From assembly GCF_005144475.1 (NCBI RefSeq), contig NZ_SWJZ01000038.1:1-60231 (forward strand): a stretch of 60,231 bases of DNA, read 5' to 3'. Every line of letters begins with the position of its first letter. Positions within the stretch are counted from its first letter, which is position 1. A program made the translations under genes and the position numbers. Positions 8,777 through 21,659 of the stretch are shown piece after piece. This stretch comes from Rhodobacter capsulatus (GTDB lineage: Bacteria; Pseudomonadota; Alphaproteobacteria; Rhodobacterales; Rhodobacteraceae). A model generated the notes under the pieces. That model did not search any database. It was not told the origin of the DNA and saw only the letters and a program-made list of their open reading frames with translations.

Positions 8777-9390
8777 AGCGCCCCCCGGATCATTGTCAGG
8801 TCGATGCCGCGGAAGGCCTTGGCCAGCGTCGCCCGGCTCAGATCGGGCAGGTGCGGCAGACGGCCAAGCGCGGGCAGACCGGCCAGACGGCAGATCGTGT
8901 CCTGACTGTCGCGGACCTCCGCGCCGATGAAGGCCACGCCCAGCACCGGCACGCGGCGGGCGCGCAACGCCTCGATCGTCAGAAGGCTGTGGTTGATCGT
9001 GCCCAAGCTCGTGCGCGCCACCACGATCACCGGCGCCTGCCAGTCCGCCATCTGATCGGCGTAAAGCCTGCGCCCGGCCAGCGGCACCAGCGCGCCGCCC
9101 GCCCCCTCGATGACCAGCGGGCCGGGCAGATCGGGCAGGGGCAGGGGCCCGATCTCGACCCCGTCGAGCGCCGCGGCAAGATGCGGCGAGGCCGGGCTGC
9201 GCAGCCGGTAAGCCTCGGGCAGGGTCGGGCAGCCGGTGAGCCGCGCCACCGTCTCGCGGTCGGTCTCCTCCGCCAGCCCGGCCTGAACCGGTTTCCAATA
9301 GGTGCCCTGCAGCGCCAGCGTCAGCCCGGCGCTGAAGACGGTCTTGCCGATGCCGGTATCGGTGCCGGTGATCACCAGGGCAGAGGTCAT
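8773..9390 (-). CDS. bioD: Dethiobiotin synthetase BioD
   Basis: A 205-residue P-loop protein beginning with the BioD motif GTDTGIGKT (residues 9-17), followed by YWKPVQAG (substrate-binding Lys) and VIEGAGG. It closes the ureido ring of DAPA with CO2 and ATP to give dethiobiotin. Both ends overlap neighbours by 4 nt, with bioF upstream and bioA downstream, which indicates tight translational coupling. Confidence 0.94.
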   Translation of the reverse strand: MTSALVITGTDTGIGKTVFSAGLTLALQGTYWKPVQAGLAEETDRETVARLTGCPTLPEAYRLRSPASPHLAAALDGVEIGPLPLPDLPGPLVIEGAGGALVPLAGRRLYADQMADWQAPVIVVARTSLGTINHSLLTIEALRARRVPVLGVAFIGAEVRDSQDTICRLAGLPALGRLPHLPDLSRATLAKAFRGIDLTMIRGAL

Positions 9391-10520
9391 CGCAGGCCCC
9401 CGATCCGCAGGGTGGCCAGCGCGTCGAACAGCGCGTCAATGTCGGAAAGCTGCAACCCGCCGGTGAGCGAAAGGCGCAGCCGCGCCGTGCCCTTGGGCAC
9501 GGTCGGCGGGCGGATGGCGCGCAGATCGAACCCCGCCTGGTGCAGCGCCTGCGCGGCCTGCAGCGCGGCGAAATCCGTGCCCAGGATCAGCGGCAGGATC
9601 TGGCTTTGCCCCGGGTCCAGCCCGATCTGTGCCGCGCGCAGCTGCGCCTGCGCCCGCAGGGCCGCCGCATGGGCGCGCAGCCCGGGCCGCGCGGGCAAGA
9701 GCCGCAGCGCCGCCCGCACCGCCGCCGCCAGCAAGGGCGAGGGGGCGGTGGCATAGAGGAAGGGCCGGGCGCGGTTCACCAGCGTCTCGATCACCACCCG
9801 ATCGGCGCAGACCAGCGCGCCGCTTGCCCCAAGCGCCTTGCCGCAGGTATGCACGACGATCAGCGCCAGATCGCCCGTCTCGGGCGCCAGACCGCGCCCG
9901 TCGCGGCCGTAAAGCCCGGTCGCATGCGCCTCGTCCAGGATCAACACGGCATCTTCGCGCCGCGCAAGGGCGGCGAAATCGTCCACGGGGGCGAAATCGC
10001 CCTCCATCGAATAAAGCGTCTCAAGCGCGATCCAGACCCGGCCGCGCCCACCCGCCGCCCGCCAGAGCCGGATCTGATCGGCCGCATCCTGCGGGTCATT
10101 GTGGCGAAAGCTGCGCGCCTCGGCCGCGCCCAGCCGCAGCCCCTCATGCGCGCTGGCATGGATCAGCGCATCATGCAGCACCAGATCCCCCGCCATCGGC
10201 AGCGTCGCAAAGACCGCCTGATTGGCCTGAAACCCGCCGCCCATGAAAAGACAGGCCTCGGCGCCGAAAAACGCGGCGGCCTCATGCTCCAGCGCGACAA
10301 ATTCCGGGTCATTGCCGCGCAGAAGCCGCGATCCGCCCGCCCCCACGGCGACCCCGCGCGCCAAAGCCTCGGCCACCGCCTGCGCCAGATCCGCCGAGGC
10401 CCGCAGGCCAAGGTAATCGTTCGAGGCGAAATCAAGCCCCCGCGCCGGGGTCAGCGCCCGCGCCCGCCCGCGTTCGGCCATGCGGGCAAGGCGCTCGGCA
10501 TGGCGGGGATAAGGGCTCAT
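9387..10520 (-). CDS. bioF: 8-amino-7-oxononanoate synthase BioF
   Basis: A 377-residue alpha-oxoamine synthase. Visible features are SNDYLGL (33-39), the GxGGSR motif (61-65), [11 protein letters not shown] with the PLP-ring Asp (196) and [11 protein letters not shown] with the Schiff-base Lys228. It condenses pimeloyl-ACP with L-alanine to form KAPA. It overlaps bioB upstream and bioD downstream by ATGA. Length and motifs are normal for BioF; related enzymes such as ALA synthase are unlikely given the operon. Confidence 0.94.
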
Positions 10521-11464
10521 GCCGCATCCCCGCAGGCGCGCGCCGCCTCGGGTTGCAACCCGAGCTTGGCGAACAGCCGGGCATCGGCGCTGTCATCGGG
10601 GTTTTCGGCGGTCAGAAGCGTGTCGCCGACGAAGATCGAATTCGCCCCGGCAAAGAAGCACATCGCCTGCAGCTCGTCCGACATCGCGCTGCGCCCGGCC
10701 GAAAGCCGCACGTAGGATTTCGGCATCAGGATCCGGGCGGTGGCGATGGTGCGGACCATCTCGATCGGGTCGAGCGGCGCGACATCGGCCAAGGGCGTGT
10801 CGGCCATCGGCATCAGCATGTTGATCGGGACCGACTGCGGCGGCTCGGGCAGATCGGCCAGCGTCTGGAGCATGCTGATGCGGTCCTCGGCGGTCTCGCC
10901 CATGCCGACGATCCCGCCCGAGCAGACATTGATCCCCGCCGCGCGGACGCGGTCCAGCGTGTCGAGCCGGTCGGCAAAGCTGTGGGTGGAGATGACCGAG
11001 GGGTAAAAGCGCTCCGAAGTGTCGATATTGTGGTTGTAGTAATCCAGCCCCGCGGCCTTCAGCTGCCGCACCTGCGCGTCATCCAGCATGCCCAGCGTCA
11101 TGCAGGTTTCCAGCCCGAGCGCCTTCACCCCCTCGACCATCGCCAGAACTGCGGGCATGTCGCGGGCCTTGGGCGAACGCCAGGCCGCGCCCATGCAATA
11201 GCGCGTGGCCCCCGCCTCCTTGGCCTTTTGCGCCTCGGCCAGAACCTTCTGCACCTCCATCAGCTTCGCGGCGGAAAGTTTCGAGCCATTGCGCCCCGAT
11301 TGCGCGCAATAGGCGCAATCCTCGCCGCAGCCGCCGGTCTTGATCGACAGAAGCTTGGCGCACTGGATGCGGTTCGGGTCGAAATTCTGCCGATGCACGC
11401 TTTGCGCGCGGAACAGAAGATCCATCAGCGGCAGGGTGTAAAGGTCTTGGGCTGGGCTTTGCAT
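10517..11464 (-). CDS. bioB: Biotin synthase BioB
   Basis: A 315-residue radical SAM enzyme and first gene of the operon. The SAM-cluster cysteines CxxxCxxC are Cys46, Cys50 and Cys53 in [15 protein letters not shown]. Downstream segments [16 protein letters not shown] and [10 protein letters not shown] carry the other conserved BioB residues, including [2Fe-2S] ligands. The enzyme inserts sulfur into dethiobiotin. The frame is open further upstream, but ATG 11464 has AGGAGG seven bases before it and is the clear start. A candidate BioR box lies 63 nt upstream. Confidence 0.95.
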
Positions 11465-11527
11465 GGCGATCCTCCTGGCTGTCGAGATCAGGGGATCGCA
11501 AATCCGCCGCGGCCTCAATTTTGAAAG

Positions 11528-11537
11528 CTATCTATGA
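11528..11537 (-). promoter_or_regulatory. Candidate BioR operator upstream of bioB
   Basis: CTATCTATGA matches the published BioR box TTATCTATAA at 8 of 10 positions and lies 63 nt before the bioB start. This is where a repressor site for the biotin operon would be expected. Confidence 0.55.
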
Positions 11538-11635
11538 TCCTGCCGCCCGGCCCTGAATTTATCCCTATTCCTGTCAGGCACTTGCCTGTGTTTTCGCCGA
11601 TCCTGCCCGCACCGGTCCTGCGCCTCTCCTGACTA

Positions 11636-11645
11636 TAATATATAA
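11636..11645. promoter_or_regulatory. Second AT-rich BioR-like box or -10 region
   Basis: TAATATATAA matches the BioR consensus at 8 of 10 positions but is also a plausible -10 element by composition. It sits about 100 nt further upstream of bioB than the first box. I found no convincing -35 partner. Confidence 0.3.
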
Positions 11646-11769
11646 TCCGGCACCGGCGGCCGGATCGGCACCGGCGCTTGCCATCGTCAGAGGTGGTGAT
11701 CACCGTGCAGATCTGCGCCTGACAAAAGCGCGGCCGCAGACCCCGCGCAGGAATTGGCTGACGCCGAGG

Positions 11770-12228
11770 TCATGTGGCGATGTCCGCCCCCAGCCGGGCG
11801 AGCCTGGCGACATCGCGGCTGAGGTCGAGATCCCCCGTCTCGAGCGCATGGAGCGGAACCCACCGGACTTCAAGGGCATCATCCCCGGCAACCGGCTCTC
11901 CGGCGACCCAGGAACACAGGACCGCCACCAGGACATGGTGATGACGCAGGGCGCCGGTCTCGTCGCGATCGAACGCATCGACCGCGGTGAAAACCTTCCG
12001 CGCCGTCGCATCTATCCCGGTTTCTTCGAAAAGCTCGCGGAGCGCGGCCTGTTCAAGGGACTCTCCAAGCTCCACCTTGCCGCCGGGAAAACCCCAGGTG
12101 CCGGCCTCGGGCGGGTTTGCGCGCCGCACGAGGAGCACATGCCCCGCCTTGAAAACCGTTGCGATCGTCGCGACGATCGGACGGCGGGCCGCTTGCGCGG
12201 GCTCGATGCCGTGCTTTTCCGCTGCCAT
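11770..12228 (-). CDS. Nudix hydrolase
   Basis: A 152-residue Nudix protein. The Nudix box GX5EX7REUXEEXGU is present as GGKVELGESLEQAALRELFEET at residues 49-70, with GTWGFPGG before it. ADP-ribose, NADH or oxidised nucleotides are typical substrates of such small Nudix enzymes; nothing in the sequence fixes which. The ATG at 12228 has AGAGGG eight bases upstream, so the longer open frame to 12402 is not used. The N-terminal segment up to residue 15 is not conserved. It stands alone between the biotin operon and a lipoprotein gene on the same strand. Confidence 0.9.
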   Translation of the reverse strand: MAAEKHGIEPAQAARRPIVATIATVFKAGHVLLVRRANPPEAGTWGFPGGKVELGESLEQAALRELFEETGIDATARKVFTAVDAFDRDETGALRHHHVLVAVLCSWVAGEPVAGDDALEVRWVPLHALETGDLDLSRDVARLARLGADIAT

Positions 12229-12370
12229 GCGTAACCCTCTGGCAAAGACTGGTTCGACCCTGCCCGACGGAAACGGGGCCGCGTGCAGGACAGCGCATCC
12301 GGCCGGGATTGGCAAATCTTTCGGCGGTGTCGGCCCGCGTTTCACCGGCGGCGCGGGCCGAAGACCGCTG

Positions 12371-12649
12371 TCAGCGATGCGCCAGATACTCCGCCGACAC
12401 ATAGCCCGAGATGCCGGGCTTGTCGGTGAGGAAGACCCGGCACCAGACCTTGCCCTTGCGTGTCACGCAGGCCTGACGGGTCAGGCGCGTGCCATCGGGC
12501 AGGCCGATGATGATCCGGGAGTTGAGGCCCGGGCCCTCGCGCAGCTTGAGCAGATCATCCGGCCCGGCCCCCTTGACCACCGCGCCGGTTCCGACCGCGC
12601 ATCCGGCCGCGAGGATGAGGGCGAAGAGAGCCGCAAAATGAAGTCGCAT
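12371..12649 (-). CDS. Small SH3-domain lipoprotein
   Basis: A 92-residue protein starting MRLHFAALFALILAAGC: a short signal peptide with lipobox LAAG|C (Cys17), so the mature form should be lipid-anchored. The rest is a bacterial SH3 (SH3b) domain: LKLREGPGLNSRIIIGLPDG, then WCRVFL and SGYVSAEYL. Such domains often bind peptidoglycan or partner proteins. The ATG at 12649 is chosen because it gives an exact signal peptide. It diverges from the AfsA-type gene, so the 245-nt gap between them holds both promoters. Confidence 0.82.
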   Translation of the reverse strand: MRLHFAALFALILAAGCAVGTGAVVKGAGPDDLLKLREGPGLNSRIIIGLPDGTRLTRQACVTRKGKVWCRVFLTDKPGISGYVSAEYLAHR

Positions 12650-12822
12650 GATCTGTCCTGACTCGTTTCGTCCTCCATACGACACCGCCGCGCCGAAGGA
12701 CAGCGCAGAGCCGCCCGGCCGCGTCAGGGCCGGGGCGGGGCGATCCCGCCCGCAGGCACCGGCCGCTTGGCACGCCGTCCGCACCTGCGCCGCGCAACGA
12801 ATCTCTTGCCTTAAATCTACAC

Positions 12823-12832
12823 CTAACGTAAG
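12823..12832. promoter_or_regulatory. MerR-regulon operator, site A (before afsA-type gene)
   Basis: CTAACGTAAG is a one-mismatch form of the perfect palindrome CTAACGTTAG found before the MFS gene. The flanks are also shared (ACAC before, AA after). It sits 62 nt before the AfsA-type start, just after a TTGCCT -35-like hexamer at 12806-12811, an arrangement that fits MerR-type activation from within the promoter spacer. Confidence 0.6.
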
Positions 12833-12894
12833 AAGCGATTGTCCGAGGGATCGGGCGAGTGAATTATCGATTTGGCAACGTATGGGAGAGTTGC

Positions 12895-13665
12895 ATGAAA
12901 CTTGTTGTAGGGAACCGGTTCCGCGAATTTGCGCAGGCGACCGATGCGCTTCTGGCGCGGGACGCGCTGGAGGCCTTTGTCGCCGGATCGGCCGGTGACA
13001 TGTATCTGGGGCAGGGCGTGTCGGAAGAAGACGCGCAGATCGTGACTTTGCTGGGGGTCGCCTCCGGGTTGCGCATCCGGCGCGAGGGCACCGGCGAACG
13101 TCGGGCCAGCCGCGAGGTCTCGCACAAGCATCGCATTGAAAATCGGCTCATTTCTCATCCCCGCCCGGTGGATGCGGACATTTTCGAAGCGGATCTTCTG
13201 GTCGATGACCGCAACGAGATCATGTCCGATCATGTGACGGGCTGCCATTTGCAGGGGATGCTTCTGATCGAAGCGACGCGGCAGATGTTCATTGCGGTGG
13301 GGGAAACGCAATATGCCCATCTGGGCGTGCCGCGGAACGGCTATGTCGTCTTTGATCGCATCGAAACCCGGTTCGAGCAATTTGCCTTCCCGTTGCCCGC
13401 GCGGCTGCGCCAGACGGTGACCGAGGCGACGCCCCAGCGCGGCGATCGGGTGAAATTCGCCGCGCAGATCGAGATCTTCCAGCCGCAAGGGCGTGTGGCG
13501 GTGTCCGAGGTGAGCTACACGATCTTCGATGCGGAGGTTCTGGCGCCGAAAGAGCGGAAACTGGCGCAGCGTGCGGTGGAAGCCGCGTTGGGCGCGCAGG
13601 CGGCGGCCGTGGCCAAGCCGGAACGTCGGTCCGCGCAGGCGCAACTGACACGCGCCGAGGCCTGA
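12895..13665 (+). CDS. AfsA-type hotdog protein (butyrolactone synthase-like)
   Basis: A 256-residue protein with the A-factor biosynthesis hotdog signature. KHRIENRLIS (79-88) is followed by SDHVTGCHLQGMLLIEATRQ (111-130), which contains the Glu126 and Arg129 of the family's E-x-x-RQ motif, and LGVPRNGYVVFDRIETRF. AfsA in Streptomyces condenses a beta-ketoacyl-ACP with dihydroxyacetone phosphate on the way to gamma-butyrolactone signals. Streptomyces AfsA is about 300 residues with two repeats; here the second repeat appears shortened or divergent. ATG 12895 follows GGGAGAG; a Met 12 codons upstream lacks this. The next gene, a HAD phosphatase, starts 3 nt after the stop, which fits dephosphorylation of such a product. 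Function as a butyrolactone synthase is inferred; other hotdog condensations are possible. Confidence 0.82.
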   Translation: MKLVVGNRFREFAQATDALLARDALEAFVAGSAGDMYLGQGVSEEDAQIVTLLGVASGLRIRREGTGERRASREVSHKHRIENRLISHPRPVDADIFEADLLVDDRNEIMSDHVTGCHLQGMLLIEATRQMFIAVGETQYAHLGVPRNGYVVFDRIETRFEQFAFPLPARLRQTVTEATPQRGDRVKFAAQIEIFQPQGRVAVSEVSYTIFDAEVLAPKERKLAQRAVEAALGAQAAAVAKPERRSAQAQLTRAEA

Positions 13666-13668
13666 GCC

Positions 13669-14370
13669 ATGATGCAATCAGATTGCAGGGCAGGCGCTTT
13701 CGCCTTCTTCGACGTCGACGAAACGCTCGTCGCCGAAAAGACGATGTTCACGATTCTGGCGCAGATCGGCCATCATCTGCCGGGCTATGACGCACGCGCC
13801 CATGCGGCGGCGACGGTGCAGCTGCGCCGCGACGGCGCCGACCGGGCCCGGGTGAACCGCTTCTTTTACAGCGGCCTGAAGGGGTTGGAGGCGTCCCTGG
13901 TGCGCGCTGTCGCGCAGGATTACGTCGCGGCGCGTCTGGCGGAAAACGCCACCCGCCCGTTTCTGATCGAAGGGGCGGTGGCGCATATGCAGGCGCTGGC
14001 GCGCCGGGGCGTTGCTCCGGTGTTCGTGTCCGGGTCCGCGCGCTGGTTCGTCGAGCCGATCGCGCGGGCGCTGGCGGTTCCGCATGTTCTGGCGACGGAG
14101 CTGGCGGTGGACGACGGCGGCAGGCTGACCGGCGCGCTGGCGGGCGACTGCATGATCGGCCCCGGCAAGCGCCGCGCGGTCGAGACGTTCCTGCAGCGGC
14201 AGGACACCGATGCCGGGGCCTGTTTCGGTCTGGGGGATCATCCGTCAGATGTCGATTTCCTGTCCCTCCTCGGGCATCCGGCCTTTGTCGCCGGGAACGA
14301 GGACGCCGAAGCGATCGCGCGCCGGAATGGCTGGCCGCTGATCCCGAACGCCTGTTTCGAGGAGGTCTGA
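13669..14370 (+). CDS. HAD-superfamily phosphatase (SerB/HAD-IB type)
   Basis: A 233-residue HAD hydrolase. Motif I is FFDVDETLV (nucleophile Asp15, acid Asp17), motif II is VFVSGSARW with its Ser, motif III is the Lys in GPGKRRAVE, and motif IV is GLGDHPSDVDF (Gly189-Asp190 and Asp194). The helical cap between motifs I and II is typical of subfamily IB (phosphoserine phosphatase-like). It is the second gene of the AfsA-type operon. In butyrolactone pathways a phosphatase removes the phosphate derived from dihydroxyacetone phosphate, so a matching role is plausible but inferred. A second Met directly follows the first. Confidence 0.85.
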   Translation: MMQSDCRAGAFAFFDVDETLVAEKTMFTILAQIGHHLPGYDARAHAAATVQLRRDGADRARVNRFFYSGLKGLEASLVRAVAQDYVAARLAENATRPFLIEGAVAHMQALARRGVAPVFVSGSARWFVEPIARALAVPHVLATELAVDDGGRLTGALAGDCMIGPGKRRAVETFLQRQDTDAGACFGLGDHPSDVDFLSLLGHPAFVAGNEDAEAIARRNGWPLIPNACFEEV

Positions 14371-14374
14371 GACG

Positions 14375-14911
14375 ATGCAGATTTACATCCAACGCCTGCC
14401 CCGCATGGTGATCCTCGGGGGGCTCGCCGCCTGGATGAGCATTGCGGCGCTCAACAACATCACGGACACGGCCACCAACCTGTTCCATCTGGACGTGATG
14501 ACCTCCATGGAGCTGCTCAAGCAGGATGCGCTGCTTGGAAACGGGCTGGAATGGCGGGCGCTTGGCCAGGGCTCGGGGGCGATTTTCCTCTCGGGAGTCG
14601 TTCTGTGGCAAATGCTTACCGCGGCGGCCTTGTGGTGGGCGGCGCAGGACGCAGCACGGGGCGTCATCGGGCGTTGCGATGCGGCCAGGCTCTCGTTGTC
14701 GGGAAATCTGGCCCTGTCCATGTTTCTGGCGATGTGGCTGAGCTTCCTCTGCGGCGGGCTCTGGTTCGGCTACTGGATGAAGCAGGGCGCCATACAGGGC
14801 GTCCATCTGAGCCTCGTCATCCTCTCGCTGGCCGCCCTGCACATCATCAATCTGCCCGCGGGCGAACCGCTGCGCCTCTTTCGCAAAAGCGCGGCGGTGC
14901 CCGCCGCCTGA
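14375..14911 (+). CDS. DUF2165-type small integral membrane protein
   Basis: A 178-residue membrane protein with four predicted hydrophobic segments: roughly residues 10-27, 65-88, 108-130 and 140-158. It resembles the DUF2165 family (NITDTATNLFHLDVMTSME and WLSFLCGGLWFGYWM are its typical parts). The start at 14375 follows GAGGAGG and lies 4 nt after the HAD stop, so it belongs to the same transcript. The function is unknown. Position suggests it acts on, shields or exports the lipid-like product of the two upstream enzymes, but this is inference. Confidence 0.8.
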   Translation: MQIYIQRLPRMVILGGLAAWMSIAALNNITDTATNLFHLDVMTSMELLKQDALLGNGLEWRALGQGSGAIFLSGVVLWQMLTAAALWWAAQDAARGVIGRCDAARLSLSGNLALSMFLAMWLSFLCGGLWFGYWMKQGAIQGVHLSLVILSLAALHIINLPAGEPLRLFRKSAAVPAA

Positions 14912-14950
14912 GCCGCCCTTGTCAGGTCGACATTCGTCCGATATCTTCAC

Positions 14951-14960
14951 CTGACGTTAG
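14951..14960. promoter_or_regulatory. MerR-regulon operator, site B (before merR-type gene)
   Basis: CTGACGTTAG, one mismatch from the perfect palindrome, preceded by TTCAC and followed by AAAAGG. It ends 13 nt before the regulator's own start, so autoregulation is expected. Confidence 0.6.
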
Positions 14961-14973
14961 AAAAGGAAAAGAC

Positions 14974-15378
14974 ATGACCGGCACAGCCATGAAGATCGGG
15001 GACCTCGCCAAACGGGCCGGTGTCAGCCATCGTACCATCCACTACTATGAATCGCGCGGCCTGATCGCGCCGATGCAGCGCGACGGCGCCTCGCATCGGA
15101 TGTATGAGGAAGAGGCCCTGCAGCGGCTCGAAAAAATCTCGGCGCTCAAGCATCTTGGGCTTTCGCTTGACGAGATCGAGGAGGTGCTGGATCTCTATTT
15201 CGAAGACACGGAAAGCCACCTTGAGGGCAAGAAACGTGTGATCGAGATCCTCAGGGCGCAGTTGGCGAAAACCGATGCGCAGATCGACGAGCTGGCGCAG
15301 TTCCGCAGCGATCTGATCCGCAACATCCGCCACATGGAACGCCTGTATCAAGAGGCCCATCCCCGGCAAACTGCCTGA
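14974..15378 (+). CDS. MerR-family transcription regulator
   Basis: A 134-residue protein with an N-terminal MerR winged helix: MKIGDLAKRAGVSHRTIHYY (residues 6-25), then ESRGLIAP and a second helical DNA-contact region to residue 75. It ends in an antiparallel coiled-coil helix (about 85-125). It contains no cysteine, so it is unlikely to be a metal or redox sensor, and its C-terminus is too short for a large ligand domain. AAGGAA precedes the ATG. Shared palindromes stand in front of it, the AfsA-type operon and the MFS gene, so it is the likely local regulator, activating or repressing in response to an unknown small molecule. A terminator follows at once. Confidence 0.9.
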   Translation: MTGTAMKIGDLAKRAGVSHRTIHYYESRGLIAPMQRDGASHRMYEEEALQRLEKISALKHLGLSLDEIEEVLDLYFEDTESHLEGKKRVIEILRAQLAKTDAQIDELAQFRSDLIRNIRHMERLYQEAHPRQTA

Positions 15379-15382
15379 CTCC

Positions 15383-15404
15383 AAGGGGCGTCCGCCCCTT
15401 TTTT
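15383..15404 (+). terminator. Rho-independent terminator after merR-type gene
   Basis: AAGGGGCG / CGCCCCTT form a perfect 8-bp stem with a two-base spacer, followed by four more T (six in a row). It lies 4 nt after the stop codon. Confidence 0.9.
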
Positions 15405-15420
15405 ACCCTAAAACCTTCAG

Positions 15421-15430
15421 CTAACGTTAG
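15421..15430. promoter_or_regulatory. MerR-regulon operator, site C (before MFS gene)
   Basis: CTAACGTTAG is a perfect 10-bp palindrome. Its right half runs into TTAGGATAAG, which also supplies the Shine-Dalgarno of the MFS gene eight bases later. TTTACC at 15402-15407 and TAGGAT at 15428-15433 could be -35 and -10 elements with a 20-bp spacer, the stretched spacing of MerR-controlled promoters. Confidence 0.65.
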
Positions 15431-15438
15431 GATAAGAA

Positions 15439-16596
15439 ATGACGTTTCGTCATGCGTCGCTTGTCGTCTTGCTGATGCTCACGGCCCTGATCGTCGTCGG
15501 CCAGCTTTACGTCACCATTCCCCTGACCGGGGCCATCGCCCGCCAGTTTGCAACCGATCCGGCGCTGGCCGCCTGGTCGGGCACGGCCTTCGGCTTTGCC
15601 TATGCCGCCGGGTTCCTGCTCTGGGGCCCGCTCTCCGACCGCGTCGGGCGGCGGTGGGTGCTGGTTCTGGGCCTTGTGTGCACCGGGGCGGTGACCGCCG
15701 CGCTGAGCCAGGCGCAGGGGATCGAGAGCTTTCTGGCCGGGCGGGCCCTGCAGGGCTTCTTCGCCGCGAGCTTCCCGCCGGTTGCGCTCAGCCTTTTGGG
15801 CGAGACCCTGCCGCCCGCCCGGCGTGCCTTTGGCATCTCGCTGATAAGTTTCGCTTTCCTGGCGGCGGCCCCGATTGCCCAGGTCGTCGCGGCCGGGATT
15901 TCGGTCCCGCTCACCGCTTTCATGCTGCTCCTGGCGCCGGCCTATGTCGCGCTGGCGGCGGGGATCGCGCTGGCGCTGCCCGCCGGGACGAAACCGGCGG
16001 CGGTGGCGGCGGCGGGGCAGGACGGCGCGGGGCGGGGCCTGCTTGGCACGCCGCTGATCGTGCTGAGCTGGGGCGCCGCGCTGACCGTGCTGTTCGGTTT
16101 CGTGACCTTTCAGGCCGGCACGGCGGCGGGCCTTGGCGGCGGCTTCGATCCGCAGCTTGTGCGCCTGGTCGGACTGCCGCCGCTCGCGCTCAGCCTCTTT
16201 GCCGCGGCGATTGCCAGACGTCTCGGCGGTCCGGTGACGGTGTCAGGTCTGGGCCTGATCCTGGCCGCGGCGGGGCTTCTGGTGGCGGGGCTCTCCGGTC
16301 CGGTCACGCTGGCTGCGGCGGCGCTGGTCGCGGCCGGGGTCGGGCTTGCGGTGCCGGGGCTGATCGCGACCATCGCCGGGGCGGCGACGCAGACCAACCG
16401 CGGCCTTGCCCTTGCGCTTTACACCTTTGCGCTTTTCGTCGGGGCCAGTGTGGCGCCGCCGGCAAGCACGGTGCTGCAACCCCTTGGGCTCTGGCCGCTT
16501 TACGGGCTTCCGGCGGCCCTGCTGCTGATCGCGGCGCTGGGGCTGGTTCTGGGGCAGCGCCGTCAATCCCCGACCCTGCAACCGATCCAGAATTGA
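15439..16596 (+). CDS. MFS transporter (drug/metabolite exporter type)
   Basis: A 385-residue, 12-segment major facilitator protein. The loop 2-3 motif A is LSDRVGRRWVLVLG (about residues 65-78). The N-terminal half has LAAWSGTAFGFAYAAGFLLWGP, and glycine-rich segments follow through the second half, typical of DHA1-type proton antiporters. It has its own promoter region with the perfect operator and is therefore predicted to be co-controlled with the AfsA-type genes by the MerR protein. Export of the product made by that operon is the natural inference, but a role in import or drug efflux is equally compatible with the family. Confidence 0.87.
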   Translation: MTFRHASLVVLLMLTALIVVGQLYVTIPLTGAIARQFATDPALAAWSGTAFGFAYAAGFLLWGPLSDRVGRRWVLVLGLVCTGAVTAALSQAQGIESFLAGRALQGFFAASFPPVALSLLGETLPPARRAFGISLISFAFLAAAPIAQVVAAGISVPLTAFMLLLAPAYVALAAGIALALPAGTKPAAVAAAGQDGAGRGLLGTPLIVLSWGAALTVLFGFVTFQAGTAAGLGGGFDPQLVRLVGLPPLALSLFAAAIARRLGGPVTVSGLGLILAAAGLLVAGLSGPVTLAAAALVAAGVGLAVPGLIATIAGAATQTNRGLALALYTFALFVGASVAPPASTVLQPLGLWPLYGLPAALLLIAALGLVLGQRRQSPTLQPIQN

Positions 16597-16620
16597 TCCC
16601 GAAACGATAGGAGTTTCCCG

Positions 16621-17190
16621 ATGACTGTCACGTCTCTTCTCTCCGCCGTCTTCCTGCAGGCGATGCTGCCTGCCGATTTCGCCCCCGTCGGCCGCGCCGA
16701 GATCCTGGTCGATGGCCGTCCGGCCGTGCTGACCCGGGCCCAGCCGCTGGACCAGCCCGAACCGAAGCTGGGCGGCGCGCATGTGTCCAGCGTCGAGGCC
16801 GGGGACCGTCTGCTCGGCTATGCGAAGATGACCGCCGAGATGGCCGAAGGACCCTTGCCCGGCAAGGAACGCGCGCAGGAGATCGCGATGCAGTTTCTGC
16901 AGGCGCATGCGCCCGATTTGCGCGCCGCCCATCAGATCCACTGGATCGCCCCGCATGAGGAAATGATCTCTGTTGACGGCAAGCGGCTGATCCTGACCGG
17001 GATGAAGGTCAAGATGCGCAGCACGTTGCCCGACAAGCTGTGGTTCTGGGTGATCGTCGGGCCGGGCGAAGAGGTCATGGTGTTCGAGCGCGACATCTTC
17101 TGGATTTCCCTGCCCGGGCGGCGCCGGACGGAAAAATGGCTGCAGGACGCTTGGCTGGCCGATCACGGCGGGGCCCGGGTTTTCGAGTGA
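16621..17190 (+). CDS. Conserved protein of unknown function
   Basis: A 189-residue protein that I do not recognise. AGGAG stands 9 nt before ATG 16621, 24 nt after the MFS stop, so it is probably cotranscribed. The first 18 residues are mildly hydrophobic (TSLLSAVFLQAMLP) but lack a charged start and a clear cleavage site. The middle has DRLLGYAKMTAEM and PGKERAQEIAMQFLQAHAPDL, and the second half has WFWVIVGPGEEVMVFERDIFW. The sequence is soluble-looking and contains no cysteine or known catalytic motif. Its place at the end of the predicted MerR regulon suggests a link to the same process. Confidence 0.7.
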   Translation: MTVTSLLSAVFLQAMLPADFAPVGRAEILVDGRPAVLTRAQPLDQPEPKLGGAHVSSVEAGDRLLGYAKMTAEMAEGPLPGKERAQEIAMQFLQAHAPDLRAAHQIHWIAPHEEMISVDGKRLILTGMKVKMRSTLPDKLWFWVIVGPGEEVMVFERDIFWISLPGRRRTEKWLQDAWLADHGGARVFE

Positions 17191-17216
17191 GGCCCCCCCG
17201 GCGCATGTCCTTCGGT

Positions 17217-17241
17217 GCAGGCCCGCCCCCCGCGGGCCTGC
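17217..17241. terminator. Strong hairpin between convergent genes
   Basis: GCAGGCCCGC and GCGGGCCTGC form a perfect 10-bp stem with a five-C loop, 26 nt after the upstream stop. There is no T-tract on either side, so termination efficiency is uncertain, but its place between convergent genes fits a bidirectional terminator. Confidence 0.55.
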
Positions 17242-17345
17242 GCAGCGCCGGTTCCCGCCTGAGGGGCATCGAGGATGGCCCTCAGGCATGGCCCCGCGCT
17301 GCGGGGTTATGGCATTCCGCTTGTGGATCGGGCCGGGCGGCGCAG

Positions 17346-18326
17346 TCAGTCGAGGCTTAGGGCGAAATCGTCCTTCGGCAGTCGGTTGACGAACCGCTCG
17401 GCGATTTCGGTGATCACGATATCGGGCTTCAGCGCCGCGATGAAGTCCCAGTCGAGGCTGGTCGACCAGACGAAATGCACGTCGCGGAAGGTTTCCGACA
17501 GCATCGCCGTCAGCAGATGCGGGCGGAATTCGCAAAAGGAATCGCCAAACAGGACAACCCTCTTGGCGATCGCCTGCGGCTGGTCGTTATGGTTGTGCAC
17601 CATGCAGCCGACGAACCGCGGCGTCCCCTTGGCGAGGCCCTCGCTTTCGTTGTAGCGCACCATCTCGTTGTCGGCCTGCCGCTTCGCCTGCCGCAGCACC
17701 CGGCCGAAGCGCGCATGTTCCAGCACCGGCGGCGACAGTTTCGCGCCCAGATCCAGCACCATCTCCTTGCCGGGGCCGGGGCGGGCCTTGCTCAGGTCGC
17801 AAGGCGTGACGCCAAGGCTTTCGCACAGGCGCAGATAGGCGACCTGACAGCCCTCGAAGGTCCAGTGGCTGTCGGTCTTGAAGAAGAACGCATCCGACCC
17901 TTGGGCATCGCCGCCGCCGGGCTCCACCCGCGCCGCCCAGTTGCCGCGATCGCCGCGCAGGTCGGGCAGGATATCGACGCAAAGCGTGTCATCGGGAAAG
18001 GCCCGGGCGAACCGTGCCGCCGGGTGTTGGTCGAAATATCGCAACGGCGCGGTCAGGTGCTGCGGATAGACCGAGATCTTGTCGGGCACGACAAGGTGAC
18101 GATACTGCGCCCCGATCTGCGCGCACCGGGCCGCACGGCCCCGCAGCAGTGTCACCCAGCCCGCAAGTTCCGGGGCCCCGAAATAGCCCGGGTCGGTGTA
18201 GTAGCGGCTGACATCGTTGGAACCGTCCCACAGGAACAACCAGCCATCGCGACCGCGCAGGATGCCGTTTTCCACGGACAGGCTGCCAGTGTCGCTTCTG
18301 CCGGGCGGAAATGTTTCGATACTCAT
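17346..18326 (-). CDS. AlgX/AlgJ-like SGNH-type acetyltransferase
   Basis: A 326-residue protein of the AlgX/AlgJ family (SGNH-like O-acetyltransferases of exopolysaccharides). GRDGWLFLWDGSNDVSRYY (25-43) is the family's N-terminal block; the catalytic pair is Asp152 and His154 in TDSHWTFEG; the nucleophile is Ser263 in LFGDSFCEF. No signal peptide follows ATG 18326, whereas AlgX and AlgJ are periplasmic. The frame stays open to 18515, but the extension is Arg-rich, not a clear export signal. It is not next to an MBOAT membrane partner, so the acyl donor is unclear. A role in acetylating the capsule made further right in the window is possible. Confidence 0.72.
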   Translation of the reverse strand: MSIETFPPGRSDTGSLSVENGILRGRDGWLFLWDGSNDVSRYYTDPGYFGAPELAGWVTLLRGRAARCAQIGAQYRHLVVPDKISVYPQHLTAPLRYFDQHPAARFARAFPDDTLCVDILPDLRGDRGNWAARVEPGGGDAQGSDAFFFKTDSHWTFEGCQVAYLRLCESLGVTPCDLSKARPGPGKEMVLDLGAKLSPPVLEHARFGRVLRQAKRQADNEMVRYNESEGLAKGTPRFVGCMVHNHNDQPQAIAKRVVLFGDSFCEFRPHLLTAMLSETFRDVHFVWSTSLDWDFIAALKPDIVITEIAERFVNRLPKDDFALSLD

Positions 18327-18583
18327 ATGGAGAAGTCCTCTTGCGACTTTTGCGGCGGTCCGGCCGATCGGGTGCCGAAAGCCCGGGGATCTGGCGCGCA
18401 GGGCGGCCAGCCAGTTGCTCGTGACAGGCTGTTGCTGGCGGAACAACGCCGCAAGGCCCCGCGCCGAAGGCAGGGTCACAACCTTGCTGAGTCTGATGTC
18501 CCGATCTCGCCCCATGGCTGCTCTTTTGGGCCTCCGCCTGCGGTTTTCACAATGTCATCTCCACCGGGGACAGACAAGGCTGA

Positions 18584-18615
18584 CAAAAACGGCAGACGGG
18601 AAGCCCGTCTGCCGT
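18584..18615 (-). terminator. Terminator of the serralysin gene
   Basis: ACGGCAGACGGG and CCCGTCTGCCGT form a perfect 12-bp stem with a three-base loop. Read on the minus strand it is followed by TTTTTG, 24 nt after the protease stop codon. Confidence 0.9.
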
Positions 18616-18639
18616 CGAAATGCACCCTGGTGTGGCGCC

Positions 18640-20397
18640 TCAGGCGACCACGAAGAAATCGGCGTTGGTCAGCGCAAGGCCGGTCCCAAGTGTCGCCACA
18701 AGCACCCGGGCGGTTCCGCCGGTGCCATCGGCGTCATACCAAACCGAGCCGGTGTCGGTTTCGTAGATGATCCGGTCCAGCGCATCGGTCGCCAGACCCG
18801 TGGTGTTCTTGGTGAAGGCACTGGCGACCAGCGTGCCGGTGGCCGCGATGCCGCCGAAGACCGACCGGTCGATGCGGATCGTGTCATCGACGACGCTGAA
18901 ATCGGTGATGCGGTCGGCATTGGCCGCGGTCACCGCGACGTTGAACAGGAACGTGTCCTGGCCCGCGCCGCCGATCAGCGTGTCCTGCCCGGTGCTGCCA
19001 TCGATGAAGTCGTTGCCGGTGCTGCCGTCCAGCTTGTCGTTGCCGGCGCCGCCGCGCAAAGTGTCGTTGCCGCCGCGCGACATCAGCGTGTTGTTCGCGT
19101 TGTTGCCCATGAGCAGGTCATTGCCGTTGCCGGTGACGCCGATCTCGATCACCGTGCCGCGGGCAATGCCGACGTTGCCCACCAGACCGGCCAGGTTCGA
19201 GAAGCTGCCGGGGGCGAGATTGAGCGTCTGATTGACGTTCGAGAAGCTGAAATCGATGGTGTCGCGGCCGCCGGCATCATAGATCGTCATCGTCACCGGA
19301 TCGCCGCCATAGGTCGCGGAGGTGCCCGCCACGAGGCTGTCGAACAGCGTTTCCAGATAGCCGCCGACGTTCGAATTCCGGCCATAGACCGTGCTGCCCG
19401 CGGTGGTGGTCGAGGCGCCATACATCGACTGGATCGCGATGATGTCGGCCATCATCGCCGACATGACCCAGGCAAAGGAGACCCCGGTGGTCGGGTTGTC
19501 GTCCTGATCGAAATAGGACATGATCGACAGGTGCCAGCTGTCATTGACGAAGGTCGTATCGTCGGGATAGGTCGCCGAGCCGTTGTAGGCGCCCTGATGG
19601 CCCAGCCCCAGCGCGTGCCCGATCTCGTGGATGTAGGTCTGCAGGCTGTAGCCGTCCATCGTGGTGCCGTAATTGGCGATCCAGGCGGTGTCGATGTTCA
19701 CGAAGGAACTGTTGATCGTCGTGCCGGTGGTGTTCGAGGTCGAATAGGCGCCGGAATCCGAATCGTCGAATTCGATGTCGGCGGTGCCGGTCGTTTCGAC
19801 GAAGACGAGATTGGCCGTGGCGGACCAGGCCTGCAGCGCCCAGCGCGCCAGCTGCTGCCCCTCGGCGGTCAGGTTGTGCAGATCGACGGTGATGACATTG
19901 TCCGACGTGGTGTCGAAGCGGCGCGCCTGCTCGCCATTGCCGGTCCAGAAGCCGTTCACCAGAAAATCGGCCAGAGTGTCGAGCGACGCCGGGGCCACCT
20001 GGGCCGCCGTCAGCGCATAGCTGCCGATATAGGAGCCATATCCCGCCGCTTCGAGGAAATACGTCCCCGAGGTGGTCGCGGTGAAGGTGATCTGCGAATT
20101 GGTGCCGTTGGCATCGTCGTTGTAGGCAATCTGGTTGCCCGCGGCATCGTAAAGTCGCAGATAGGTGTCGCTCAGCGTGCCGCCGTTCAGGTTGAACTGA
20201 TAGGTCTGCCCCGCCACGAGATTGATCCGCACGCCGTCCCGGTCGCCCGAGGCCGCGATCGCCCCGTTGAACGTGTCCCCGACACTCATCGTGTAGGTCG
20301 TGCTGGTCCCTGCACCGGCATCTGCGCCCTCGTTCACCGCCGCGTAAAGAGGCTCTGCCGCGGCAGTGCGCAAAAATTCGCTGATCTGTCGTGTCAT
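18640..20397 (-). CDS. Serralysin-type RTX metalloprotease
   Basis: A 585-residue extracellular zinc protease. Residues 30-130 resemble a PPC (pre-peptidase C-terminal) beta domain. The catalytic zinc motif is HEIGHALGLGH (257-267) and the Met-turn is SIMSYF (291-296), both diagnostic of serralysins. Glycine/aspartate nonapeptide repeats such as GGNDTLRGGAGNDKLDG (from about residue 405) form the calcium-binding beta-roll, and the C-terminus ends in hydrophobic residues. There is no Sec signal, as expected for type I secretion. The PPC domain in front of the protease is less usual. No dedicated exporter is adjacent; the type I operon at 53-58 kb could serve it. Confidence 0.93.
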   Translation of the reverse strand: MTRQISEFLRTAAAEPLYAAVNEGADAGAGTSTTYTMSVGDTFNGAIAASGDRDGVRINLVAGQTYQFNLNGGTLSDTYLRLYDAAGNQIAYNDDANGTNSQITFTATTSGTYFLEAAGYGSYIGSYALTAAQVAPASLDTLADFLVNGFWTGNGEQARRFDTTSDNVITVDLHNLTAEGQQLARWALQAWSATANLVFVETTGTADIEFDDSDSGAYSTSNTTGTTINSSFVNIDTAWIANYGTTMDGYSLQTYIHEIGHALGLGHQGAYNGSATYPDDTTFVNDSWHLSIMSYFDQDDNPTTGVSFAWVMSAMMADIIAIQSMYGASTTTAGSTVYGRNSNVGGYLETLFDSLVAGTSATYGGDPVTMTIYDAGGRDTIDFSFSNVNQTLNLAPGSFSNLAGLVGNVGIARGTVIEIGVTGNGNDLLMGNNANNTLMSRGGNDTLRGGAGNDKLDGSTGNDFIDGSTGQDTLIGGAGQDTFLFNVAVTAANADRITDFSVVDDTIRIDRSVFGGIAATGTLVASAFTKNTTGLATDALDRIIYETDTGSVWYDADGTGGTARVLVATLGTGLALTNADFFVVA

Positions 20398-20431
20398 CGG
20401 TGTATTCCCTTCCCCAATTCTTCAGGCAGGC

Positions 20432-20842
20432 CTATCGGGCAATCGGGCTTGCGTCCCAAAGGCTTTGAAAGAACCCGCTGATCATGCGTGCGTTCAAATC
20501 GCGATCCATCACGCTGAGCGCCCTGGTCTCGCCCGTTTTCCAGTCCTCGCCGGGGTGCCGCCATTCCAGATGCGCGGCAATCCCGTTTTTCTTCAGCCGC
20601 TCGACATGCAGCCGAACGGCGGTTGTCATGTCCGGAGGCGTTTCCGCCTCGACCAGCTCGACCTTGCGGTCCGGCAGGCTGGTCGCGATCACCTCCTGCA
20701 GCAACCCGCACAGATCCGCCACCTCGGCGGTCTGCGGCAGGCAGCTCAGGGCAAGGCCCGGGTCAGCATTGACCTGGACGGGGGCAAGACCTGCGCCCAT
20801 CATCACCAGAACCCTCCCGAATGCGATCAATTGCGTCACCAC
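20432..20842 (-). CDS. Small secreted protein of unknown function before serralysin
   Basis: A 136-residue protein with a hydrophobic N-terminus (LIAFGRVLVMMGAGLAPVQVNA), probably a signal peptide cleaved after VNA. The mature part has two Cys (SCLPQTAEVADLC) and a WRHPGEDWKTGETRALSVMDRD segment. I recognise no family. It ends 34 nt before the protease start and is likely cotranscribed; many secreted proteases are paired with small periplasmic inhibitors, so that is a guess worth testing. The start is odd: a 16-bp tandem duplication places the good-looking upstream ATG (20864) out of frame, leaving GTG 20842. Confidence 0.6.
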   Translation of the reverse strand: MVTQLIAFGRVLVMMGAGLAPVQVNADPGLALSCLPQTAEVADLCGLLQEVIATSLPDRKVELVEAETPPDMTTAVRLHVERLKKNGIAAHLEWRHPGEDWKTGETRALSVMDRDLNARMISGFFQSLWDASPIAR

Positions 20843-20859
20843 CCAATTGCGTCACCACC
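20828..20859. repeat. Perfect 16-bp tandem duplication at a gene start
   Basis: CAATTGCGTCACCACC occurs twice without a gap (20828-20843 and 20844-20859). Because 16 is not a multiple of three, it shifts the frame between ATG 20864 and the downstream coding sequence. Confidence 0.95.
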
Positions 20860-20909
20860 ACCATGGCAGCCTAACTGCCGCAGGGGCACCTGTCTATCCT
20901 GTTGACGGG

Positions 20910-21659
20910 TCAGCGGCTGAAGCAATCGGCGCGGCCATCGGCCTTGATCGTGGCGGCGCCATCGGCGATCTGATTGGCCCGTTTCGACACATACCGCGAG
21001 GGCCGGGCGGCGTTGCGATCTTTCGGATCGGGCAGCACCGCGGCCAGCAGCGCCGCCTGTCGCGGGGTCAGTTTCGCCGGGGTGGTGCGGAAGTAATGGA
21101 AGGCGGCGGCATTGACGCCGAACACGCCCTCGCCGAATTCCGCAACGTTCAGATAGACTTCCAATATCCGCCGCTTGGTCCAGACCGCCTCGACCGCCGG
21201 CGTCAGAAGTGCTTCAAGCGCCTTGCGCAGCCAGCTGCGGCCCTGCCACAGGAAGACGTTCTTCGTCACCTGTTGCGACAGCGTGGAGGCCCCGCGATTG
21301 GCGCCCTTGTCGATCGCCTGCCGGATCGCCCCCATGTCGAAGCCCCAATGGGTGCAGAAATTCGCATCCTCGGCGGCCACGACCGACCGGGCCATCACCG
21401 GGGCGATGTCCTCGAAATCGGTCCATTCCTGATCGAGTTTGCCCAGCCGCTGCTTCTCGCTCCACATCGTGAAGGTCGTCGGCGGGTCCAGCACGTCATA
21501 AAGCACGATCAGCGCCAGATAGGCGGCCAGAATGCCGAGGCTGATCCGCGCCGTCCAGGCCGCCACAAAGCGCAGCGGCGCACGCACAAGCGCCCTGGCA
21601 GAGGCCGCGGGCCCCGGGGGAATCGTCGCTTTGATCGGGTGTTTCCTGCGTGCCGTCAT
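20910..21659 (-). CDS. mtgA: Monofunctional peptidoglycan glycosyltransferase MtgA
   Basis: A 249-residue GT51 enzyme with a single N-terminal membrane anchor (ISLGILAAYLALIVLYDVL, about 35-53). GT51 motifs are VVAAEDANFCTHWGFD with the catalytic Glu, GASTLSQQVTKNVFLW, and KRRILEVYLNVAEFGEGVFG. It polymerises lipid II into glycan strands at the inner membrane and lacks a transpeptidase domain, as MtgA should. The frame is open to 21746, but a terminator for gltB sits at 21715-21736, so a start at 21659 (or a nearby GTG) is preferred. Confidence 0.92.
   Translation of the reverse strand: MTARRKHPIKATIPPGPAASARALVRAPLRFVAAWTARISLGILAAYLALIVLYDVLDPPTTFTMWSEKQRLGKLDQEWTDFEDIAPVMARSVVAAEDANFCTHWGFDMGAIRQAIDKGANRGASTLSQQVTKNVFLWQGRSWLRKALEALLTPAVEAVWTKRRILEVYLNVAEFGEGVFGVNAAAFHYFRTTPAKLTPRQAALLAAVLPDPKDRNAARPSRYVSKRANQIADGAATIKADGRADCFSR

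Follow-up and report, generated by a model that had tools for sequence, protein, structure and literature searches.

Enzymes of the AfsA family are the textbook makers of Streptomyces hormones and signals, and in the gamma-butyrolactone systems of that genus a receptor of the TetR/ScbR type lies beside the synthase. The three Streptomyces ScbA/BarX loci that we examined (L046-L048) have an ScbR-type receptor in this position, an AfsA-family enzyme with two hotdogs, a HAD-IB hydrolase in the same gene run (3/3) and a gene of the acyl-CoA dehydrogenase family. AfsA systems have already been published in Gram-negative bacteria, in Ruegeria pomeroyi (PMC7426152) and, for gladiofungin and gladiostatin, in Burkholderia (PMC7756420, PMC7756379). 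The accounts of Burkholderia gladioli place an AfsA-like (PBS) domain at the end of a polyketide synthase line, together with a phosphatase gene (PMC7756420, PMC7756379), and the gladiostatin domain is reported to carry out the DHAP condensation in vitro (PMC7756379). The closest known system to the locus described here is the afsA cluster of R. pomeroyi, which is reported to be required for diffusible killing, for immunity and for its own transcription; in the afsA mutant 21 of 4,252 genes changed, 10 of them within the cluster, and the authors left the killing molecule open (PMC7426152).

We analysed a 60,231-nucleotide stretch of Rhodobacter capsulatus DNA, here called the window, which contains a compact gene cluster of a seldom-encountered kind. 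Its probable function is the production and export, under local control, of a small butenolide-like compound akin to Streptomyces A-factor, possibly one directed against competitors. The locus occupies 12895-17190 and comprises afsA, a HAD-IB phosphatase gene, a DUF2165 gene, merR, an MFS transporter gene and a gene for a protein without a family, P6, all on the forward strand; the preliminary description began at 12795, which takes in some 100 bases of DNA upstream of afsA. The first three genes (12895-14911) are separated by gaps of only 3 and 4 bases and hence very likely form one operon. A search of positions 9000-21000 against Rfam gave zero matches, terminators were predicted three times against 3.4 expected, which is no evidence for real ones, and no AfsA relatives were found in phage records.

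The afsA-like gene (12895..13665, +) encodes 256 aa and matches PF03756 at 62 bits (cut-off 24, E 7.7e-17), with nothing else in Pfam at E<=0.1. It carries E126-A-T-R129-Q130, and the AfsA-type hotdog with an E-x-x-RQ motif proposed beforehand is borne out. An AlphaFold2 model (mean pLDDT 94.0, pTM 0.87) has one hotdog domain, preceded by a conserved alpha/beta segment, roughly 65 residues long, at the N terminus. In an alignment of the window protein with those of 47 of the 63 scan loci (most of the 16 left out had shorter or near-duplicate matches), D112, H113, H118, E126, R129 and Q130, which fall in DHxxGxH..GM...E..RQ, are invariant in all 48 members. PF03756 is the sole Pfam match of each of these 48 at E<=0.01, and the question of AfsA versus FabA/FabZ is settled for AfsA: a FabA/FabZ identity of the 256-aa protein is rejected, there being no FabA/FabZ match in Pfam, and FabZ appears as a distant relative only in a search against PDB sequences (best E 4.5e-4). 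Against the ScbA/BarX gamma-butyrolactone synthase equivalog NF041195 the protein scores 20.5 bits, with a cut-off of 200. Evidence is mixed as to which half of a two-hotdog AfsA the single hotdog resembles, since hhalign points to the first half and the NCBIfam stretches of L010 and L016 lie in the second. Three further members of the family (G099, G147, G173) have AfsA proteins that belong to a different cluster and appear by eye to have two hotdogs. On homology, the product of afsA is a probable synthase of a phosphorylated butenolide.

The HAD-IB protein (13669..14370, +) matches PF12710 at 89.9 bits, TIGR01490 at 113.5 bits (cut-off 98.3) and TIGR01488 at 73 bits (cut-off 45). HAD phosphatases are recognized by a scheme of four motifs, all of which, as previously claimed, are present (FDVDET, VSGS, K167 and GDHPSD), and by family membership the enzyme probably takes the phosphate off the butenolide. 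The DUF2165 membrane protein (14375..14911, +; PF09933, 63.2 bits) very likely belongs to the same operon, as stated before, 4 bases downstream; that it might be an immunity protein or an export helper is a guess. P6 (16621..17190, +) matches no family above cut-off, its best match below it being PF16244 (YcdB/YcdC, E 0.024). FERDI and R-x-TE-x-WL are invariant in all 13 rows of its alignment, and its model (mean pLDDT 80.8) runs four strands, a helix and four strands; this predicted order and the sub-threshold match suggest that P6 possibly has a PepSY/YcdB-like fold, and it is perhaps membrane-anchored or periplasmic.

The merR gene (14974..15378, +) encodes 134 aa from that start and exceeds the cut-offs for PF13411 (74.6 bits), PF00376 and PF09278, which cover the helix-turn-helix and DNA-binding part. 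Metal and redox MerR proteins such as CueR, ZntR and SoxR typically sense through cysteines; this protein has none, in agreement with the preliminary description, its scores for ZntR, CueR, MerR and SoxR are all below cut-off, and we reject such a function. MerR is the sole regulator among the six genes and four neighbours scanned, which include no receptor of the TetR/ScbR type. The MFS protein (15439..16596, +; PF07690, 103.4 bits), whose gene lies with merR and P6 next to the operon as described before, is by family a probable exporter. The earlier suggestion that the locus produces a related small molecule and moves it has good support by analogy; the further suggestion, that MerR senses this molecule as its receptor, fares less well, the protein being short, free of cysteine and without a separate ligand domain.

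The window is one of 68 AfsA loci compared (with L010, L011, L012, L015 and L049-L111), among which independent counts are lower because of duplicate entries (L015 and L066, of equal length, are apparently one contig; Pseudovibrio exalbescens and Kiloniella laminariae each occur twice), and the absence of a gene close to a contig end (L100 among others) is insecure because ORFs open there are unlisted. HAD-IB genes lie downstream of afsA within 4 kb in 61 loci, or 62 counting L107, where HAD is upstream; for plasmid records with a HAD match, neighbourhoods were examined in 5 of 10. DUF2165 and P6 occur in an identical 12 of the 68 loci, in five gene orders and each time with an MFS gene (11 in one BLAST cluster, that of L054 more distant), and a related merR stands beside the cluster in nine of these 12 full loci. 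Conservation of the neighbours, as the preliminary description expected it, therefore holds across families and classes but not within the genus, where P6 occurs in none of 17 other genomes and a merR orthologue in one. The congener L043 has merR (88%), the MFS gene (82%) and three copies of the box described below, without afsA, HAD, DUF2165 and most of P6; it has also kept the stretch 12791-12842, around the first box, without the genes. Elsewhere merR adjoins P6 without afsA in two more genomes (L129, L130), and MFS and P6 occur together without afsA on an Oligella plasmid (L045).

The 19-bp box, WATCTWCANYTNACGTWAG, which the preliminary description lacked, precedes afsA, merR and the MFS gene on the forward strand. 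Box 1 (AATCTACACCTAACGTAAG, 12814..12832), 62 bases before the afsA start, and box 2 (14942..14960), before merR, have no mismatch to this sequence, and box 3 (15412..15430), near the MFS start codon, has one; a shortened version of the box, searched with up to one mismatch, gives three matches in the window where 0.04 would be expected. At up to two mismatches, the 4.22-Mb genome holds no site beyond these three, in a search that presumes a single consensus to catch every MerR target, and at this threshold a wide MerR regulon acting through the box is rejected. A further ten sites differ at exactly three positions; two of these lie in the window (box 3 read on the back strand is one), and a reversed control pattern gives eight sites at up to three mismatches. 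The confinement of the box to the locus makes the circuit look local and weakens the term 'signalling' applied to it earlier. Six of the 12 full loci, the window counted, have the box, including Pseudovibrio and Salipiger loci, and six have none at up to two mismatches (L054, L057, L061, L095, L100, L108); where P6 stands apart, the box precedes it (L053, L130). AfsA loci of other types give one match in 52 loci and 854,600 bases. A sigma-70-like promoter before merR (TTGTCA-17-TATCTT, 14919..14947, +; a consensus match only) has its second hexamer in box 2, whose ACGT portion comes right after it, and the afsA boxes of L043, L052 and L053 come directly after TTGACW; our guess is that the box mediates repression. 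The boxes mark just the synthesis, merR and MFS promoters, which bears on the putative receptor role of MerR.

The cluster on the megaplasmid of R. pomeroyi DSS-3 (SPOA0342 region) resembles this locus in having an AfsA of the same build (33-35% identical) with HAD-IB and MFS genes, in its patchy distribution and in a published effect of afsA mostly on its own cluster (PMC7426152). It differs in having LysR regulators, unknowns of 203 and 281 aa, a tautomerase, an aldo/keto reductase and a carboxymuconolactone decarboxylase where the R. capsulatus cluster has merR, DUF2165 and P6. Neither the LysR nor the 203-aa-unknown neighbour cluster, present in 25 and 24 of the 68 loci, includes the window; because LysR and both unknowns are missing here, the R. 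pomeroyi phenotype may not carry over. Its AfsA also sits in another clade of a tree made by a quick method from 51 rows (the 48-member alignment with L010, L011 and L012), whose types are our own labels, 12 rows being 'other'. Unlike ScbA/BarX loci, the R. capsulatus cluster has one hotdog, a MerR and no reductase; the gladiofungin and gladiostatin cluster descriptions, as far as they are at hand, mention no merR, DUF2165 or P6 (PMC7756420, PMC7756379). Sensor kinases and c-di-GMP proteins neighbour the sister AfsA-HAD branch, with a CHASE5 histidine kinase in L067 and L069 and response-regulator-GGDEF-EAL proteins in L066, L078 and L083, which favours signalling there; the Kiloniella and Gilvimarinus kinase loci share the AfsA-HAD core but have two-component and c-di-GMP neighbours where R. 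capsulatus has merR.

We are inclined, with some reserve, to regard the locus as a self-contained acyl-butenolide unit yielding an interference compound under feedback rather than a global signal. The AfsA-like enzyme would join a beta-ketoacyl thioester from fatty-acid synthesis to dihydroxyacetone phosphate, HAD-IB would remove the phosphate to give a 2-acyl-3-hydroxymethyl-butenolide, predicted to stay unreduced since none of the six genes encodes a reductase, and the MFS protein would export it. MerR would bind the three boxes and so close a local loop over synthesis, itself and export (plus P6), and the product would be diffusible and serve for interference, with feedback and protection of the producer. 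Two points make such a compound likelier than a signal for global quorum sensing: the box is without further targets, and merR with MFS or P6 occurs in genomes that have no synthase. An autoinducer to which distant genes respond, either by way of weaker MerR sites or by a different receptor, is nonetheless an unlikely but serious contender: Streptomyces AfsA enzymes make signals (see also PMC7756379) and the sister loci adjoin kinases and GGDEF-EAL proteins, against which stand the empty genome-wide search and the narrow effect of afsA loss in R. pomeroyi (21 genes, 10 in its own cluster; PMC7426152).

The synthase-free genomes would also suit two mere neighbours, an afsA-HAD-DUF2165 synthesis operon and an independent merR-MFS-P6 efflux or response module for some other toxic compound; we find this doubtful, given the same box before afsA, merR and MFS, and before P6 in two other genomes, and the joint occurrence of DUF2165 and P6 whatever the gene order. 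Most improbable is another hotdog activity in the metabolism of lipids or polyketides, for example as a thioesterase or dehydratase, with no butenolide made. The single hotdog with its extra N-terminal part, the score far below the ScbA/BarX cut-off and FabZ as the nearest solved relative by sequence speak for it; the uniform PF03756 matches, the frequent HAD partner, which fits a phosphorylated product, and the DHAP reaction of the gladiostatin domain (PMC7756379) speak against it.

AfsA is known as a hormone maker of Streptomyces, yet a Gram-negative relative in R. pomeroyi is reported to be required for killing competitors (PMC7426152). The R. capsulatus locus is a very compact version, with one each of synthase, phosphatase, membrane protein, regulator, exporter and unknown, and, its candidate operators being mapped, the product and the question of signal or weapon become directly testable. 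The box before afsA, merR and MFS and its restriction to the locus are newly described, and DUF2165 and P6, both uncharacterized proteins, gain a context. We tentatively raise a further idea: in Gram-negative bacteria an AfsA-made molecule may have a short MerR as its direct receptor, acting in concert with a PepSY-like P6, MFS and DUF2165, and merR with MFS or P6 may be a portable response module, carried also by synthase-free genomes for eavesdropping or resistance. If true, MerR as a butenolide receptor would be a new type of butenolide sensing in Gram-negative bacteria.

Six genes, all on the plus strand, occupy positions 12895-17190 of the window. The first, afsA (12895-13665), matches PF03756 (AfsA, Pfam) with 62 bits against a cut-off of 24, and is followed after 3 bases by a HAD-IB phosphatase gene (13669-14370; Pfam HAD, 89.9 bits; NCBIfam TIGR01490, over cut-off) and, after a further 4 bases, by a DUF2165 gene (14375-14911; Pfam, 63.2 bits). 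The set is completed by merR (14974-15378; Pfam MerR_1, 74.6 bits), an MFS gene (15439-16596; Pfam MFS_1, 103.4 bits) and P6 (16621-17190), whose sole Pfam match, YcdB/YcdC, is sub-threshold (E 0.024). Near the cluster, on the minus strand, a Pfam scan places a serralysin-type metallopeptidase with calcium-binding repeats (18640-20397).

The preliminary description had taken the 256-aa afsA product for an AfsA-type protein rather than a FabA/FabZ-like one, and this is borne out by an alignment of 48 members (the window and 47 of 63 loci from a genome scan): at E<=0.01 each of the 48 has PF03756 as its sole Pfam match. Invariant positions include H77, K78, D112, H113, G116, H118, M122, E126, R129 and Q130. 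A FabZ identity was rejected because Pfam matches AfsA alone; FabZ appears among PDB-sequence relatives, where the AfsA profile found at E<=1 four FabZ-like entries (best E 4.5e-4), as expected from the hotdog fold common to both, two unrelated, chance-like entries and no solved AfsA relative. The AlphaFold2 model is confident (mean pLDDT 94.0, pTM 0.87) and predicts a small alpha/beta part at the N-terminus, some 65 residues long, followed by a single hotdog. When profiles were compared with three ScbA/BarX proteins, this hotdog aligned with the first half of those proteins (probability 94.4, E 8.4e-8); NCBIfam places the matching stretches of two relatives in the second half. Against the NCBIfam ScbA/BarX equivalog the afsA protein scored 20.5 bits, below the cut-off of 200. 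Two Streptomyces plasmids encode AfsA proteins that are built alike, with a single hotdog, in one case beside KASIII, a phosphopantetheine-binding protein and HAD, and in the other beside a carboxylmethyltransferase and a PEP/pyruvate-binding protein.

Counting the source genome in each case, PF03756 was detected in 4 of the 295 family genomes and 4 of the 385 class genomes; of 292 genomes in the order, 2 gave a match to the afsA protein itself. The other three members in the family are by eye two-hotdog proteins in an unrelated-looking cluster, with TrpF/TrpA-like paralogues, an FAD oxidoreductase and an MFS gene (also by eye) as neighbours. For P6 the counts are 2 of 398 phylum genomes and 4 of 385 class genomes, again including the source genome; among 17 other genomes of the genus, none has P6 and one has a merR orthologue.

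A single scan of a genome collection recovered the 63 AfsA loci, whose titles place them in the alpha-, beta- and gammaproteobacteria or, for four, the actinobacteria; these, the window and four more loci form a compared set of 68. In 61 of the 68, HAD-IB is located on the same strand, 3' of AfsA and no more than 4 kb away; in 37 the distance is 150 bases at most or the genes overlap. DUF2165 and P6 are carried by the same 12 loci: the window, Salipiger mucosus, four Pseudovibrio, Pseudochrobactrum, Salinarimonas ramus, an alphaproteobacterial MAG (L061), two Neisseriaceae MAGs and a Photobacterium. All 12 have an MFS gene nearby, 11 in one BLAST cluster and one (L054) a more distant relative about 4 kb off. 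Since seven keep the window's order and the remaining five show four further orders, the set has been shuffled yet held together. A related merR is present in nine; two (L095, L108) have a divergent, different MerR-like gene in its place (weak MerR-type matches), and the remaining one (L100) is cut by a contig end. As recorded, merR of S. mucosus (L049:11072-11462) and afsA of Photobacterium sp. JCM 19050 (L108:8977-9743) are frame-broken, through sequencing error or decay.

In an AfsA tree of 51 rows, made by a quick method, the window, Salipiger and Pseudovibrio form one group of six rows (SH-aLRT 98). Window-type neighbourhoods (11 rows) required 2 changes on the tree against a shuffled mean of 10.0, neighbourhoods resembling the Ruegeria pomeroyi afsA cluster (19 rows) 5 against 15.4, a third type (9 rows) 2 against 8.4, and all others (12 rows) 7 against 10.9. 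Hosts of the third type include Kiloniella, Gilvimarinus, Marinimicrobium and Azospirillum. Its loci carry CHASE5 histidine kinases (verified in L067 and L069), response-regulator-GGDEF-EAL proteins (L066, L078, L083) and, at 13 loci by clustering, a solute-binding-like protein, the one checked being barely over cut-off. Domains of such neighbours were checked in these five loci, L063 and L070, the kinases being CHASE5 or hybrid; L072, L075, L096 and others were placed in the kinase-linked group by BLAST cluster. In L066, AfsA stands beside such neighbours without HAD. AfsA loci of this kind, with or without HAD, suggest an undescribed two-component/c-di-GMP branch.

A 19-bp box, WATCTWCANYTNACGTWAG, lies 5' of afsA, merR and MFS, and a sigma-70-like promoter (TTGTCA-17-TATCTT) is predicted to overlap the merR copy. 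With one mismatch allowed, the short form CASCTRACGTWAG occurs three times in the window against 0.04 expected. The whole 4.22-Mb genome holds three box sites at up to 2 mismatches, all at this locus, and ten more at exactly 3; a reversed control pattern gave 8 at up to 3. The window, L043 (a congener's locus), L049-L053 and L130 (a merR/P6 locus) together contain 21 sites at up to 2 mismatches, including one before P6 in L130 and another before P6 in L053, where P6 is relocated away from MFS. As the consensus was built from the window and its relatives, their high scores are partly by construction; independent evidence comes from the genome-wide count and from AfsA loci of other types, with one site in 52 loci (854,600 bases). 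Because six full-set loci (L054, L057, L061, L095, L100, L108) have no site at up to 2 mismatches, the motif in its exact form is a feature of the window's clade and L130; in L057 one site with 3 mismatches lies at merR and another at MFS. A Deinococcus plasmid carries, beside an oxidoreductase gene, a MerR that shares 53% identity with that of the window, and dyads like TGACGTNNACGTCA, seen by eye before both genes, may be a fuller form of the box.

Response genes also occur without the synthase. The congener locus L043 (genome G901) retains merR (88% identity to the window), MFS (82%), all three boxes, the neighbouring SH3-domain gene about 7 kb away and, as an orphan, a 52-base piece of the region upstream of afsA (window 12791-12842); of P6 roughly the first 75 bases alone are recognisable, and no afsA, HAD or DUF2165 was found in the 19.9 kb examined. 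As the remnant promoter and P6 stump persist, loss of the missing genes seems likelier than their never having been there. Between the SH3 gene and merR (L043:4715-8965) lies a lanthipeptide-synthetase-like combination of LanC-like and kinase-like protein, preceded by a 236-aa ORF, repetitive by eye. In two further genomes, G321 and G405, merR adjoins P6 with no AfsA gene in the 15 kb and 3 kb read; by handle number in the 385-genome class sample, neither is among the PF03756 matches. MFS adjoins P6 on an Oligella ureolytica plasmid, where the P6 relative (44% identical) follows the MFS gene and a MarR gene; the plasmid is conjugative and also carries sul2. These cases indicate that merR, MFS and P6 can be of use where the synthase is absent. 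Protection or eavesdropping would be in keeping with this, and the MerR ligand may also be some other compound.

The open-licence literature, searched with MerR but not DUF2165 among the topics, yielded no description of a merR/DUF2165/P6-type cluster. For the R. pomeroyi afsA cluster, Sharpe et al. 2020 (PMC7426152) report from transposon mutants that it is required for diffusible killing and that immunity also needs some of its genes; afsA loss changed 21 of 4,252 genes, 10 of these within the cluster, and the authors leave open whether the product is toxin or signal. The AfsA-like domain of gladiostatin synthesis condenses 3-ketothioesters with DHAP in vitro, with putative phosphatases as possible partners (PMC7756379); gladiofungin production stops on deletion of this domain (PMC7756420), and glaP of the gladiofungin/gladiostatin cluster is a HAD phosphatase gene (PMC10574677).

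By homology, AfsA and the phosphatase would yield a dephosphorylated 2-acyl-3-hydroxymethyl-butenolide, predicted to remain unreduced because no reductase is among the six genes. Such a butenolide should be reactive, and this would be in keeping with its export and its control at the locus. MerR is a plausible candidate receptor for the AfsA product, a role to be treated with caution because the protein is short, without cysteine and without a separate ligand domain. A signalling role is possible in the AfsA family, and the link of sister loci to kinases speaks for it. For the window's cluster, the local confinement of the box and the pattern in which synthesis genes are lost weigh in favour of an interference compound with feedback rather than a global signal.
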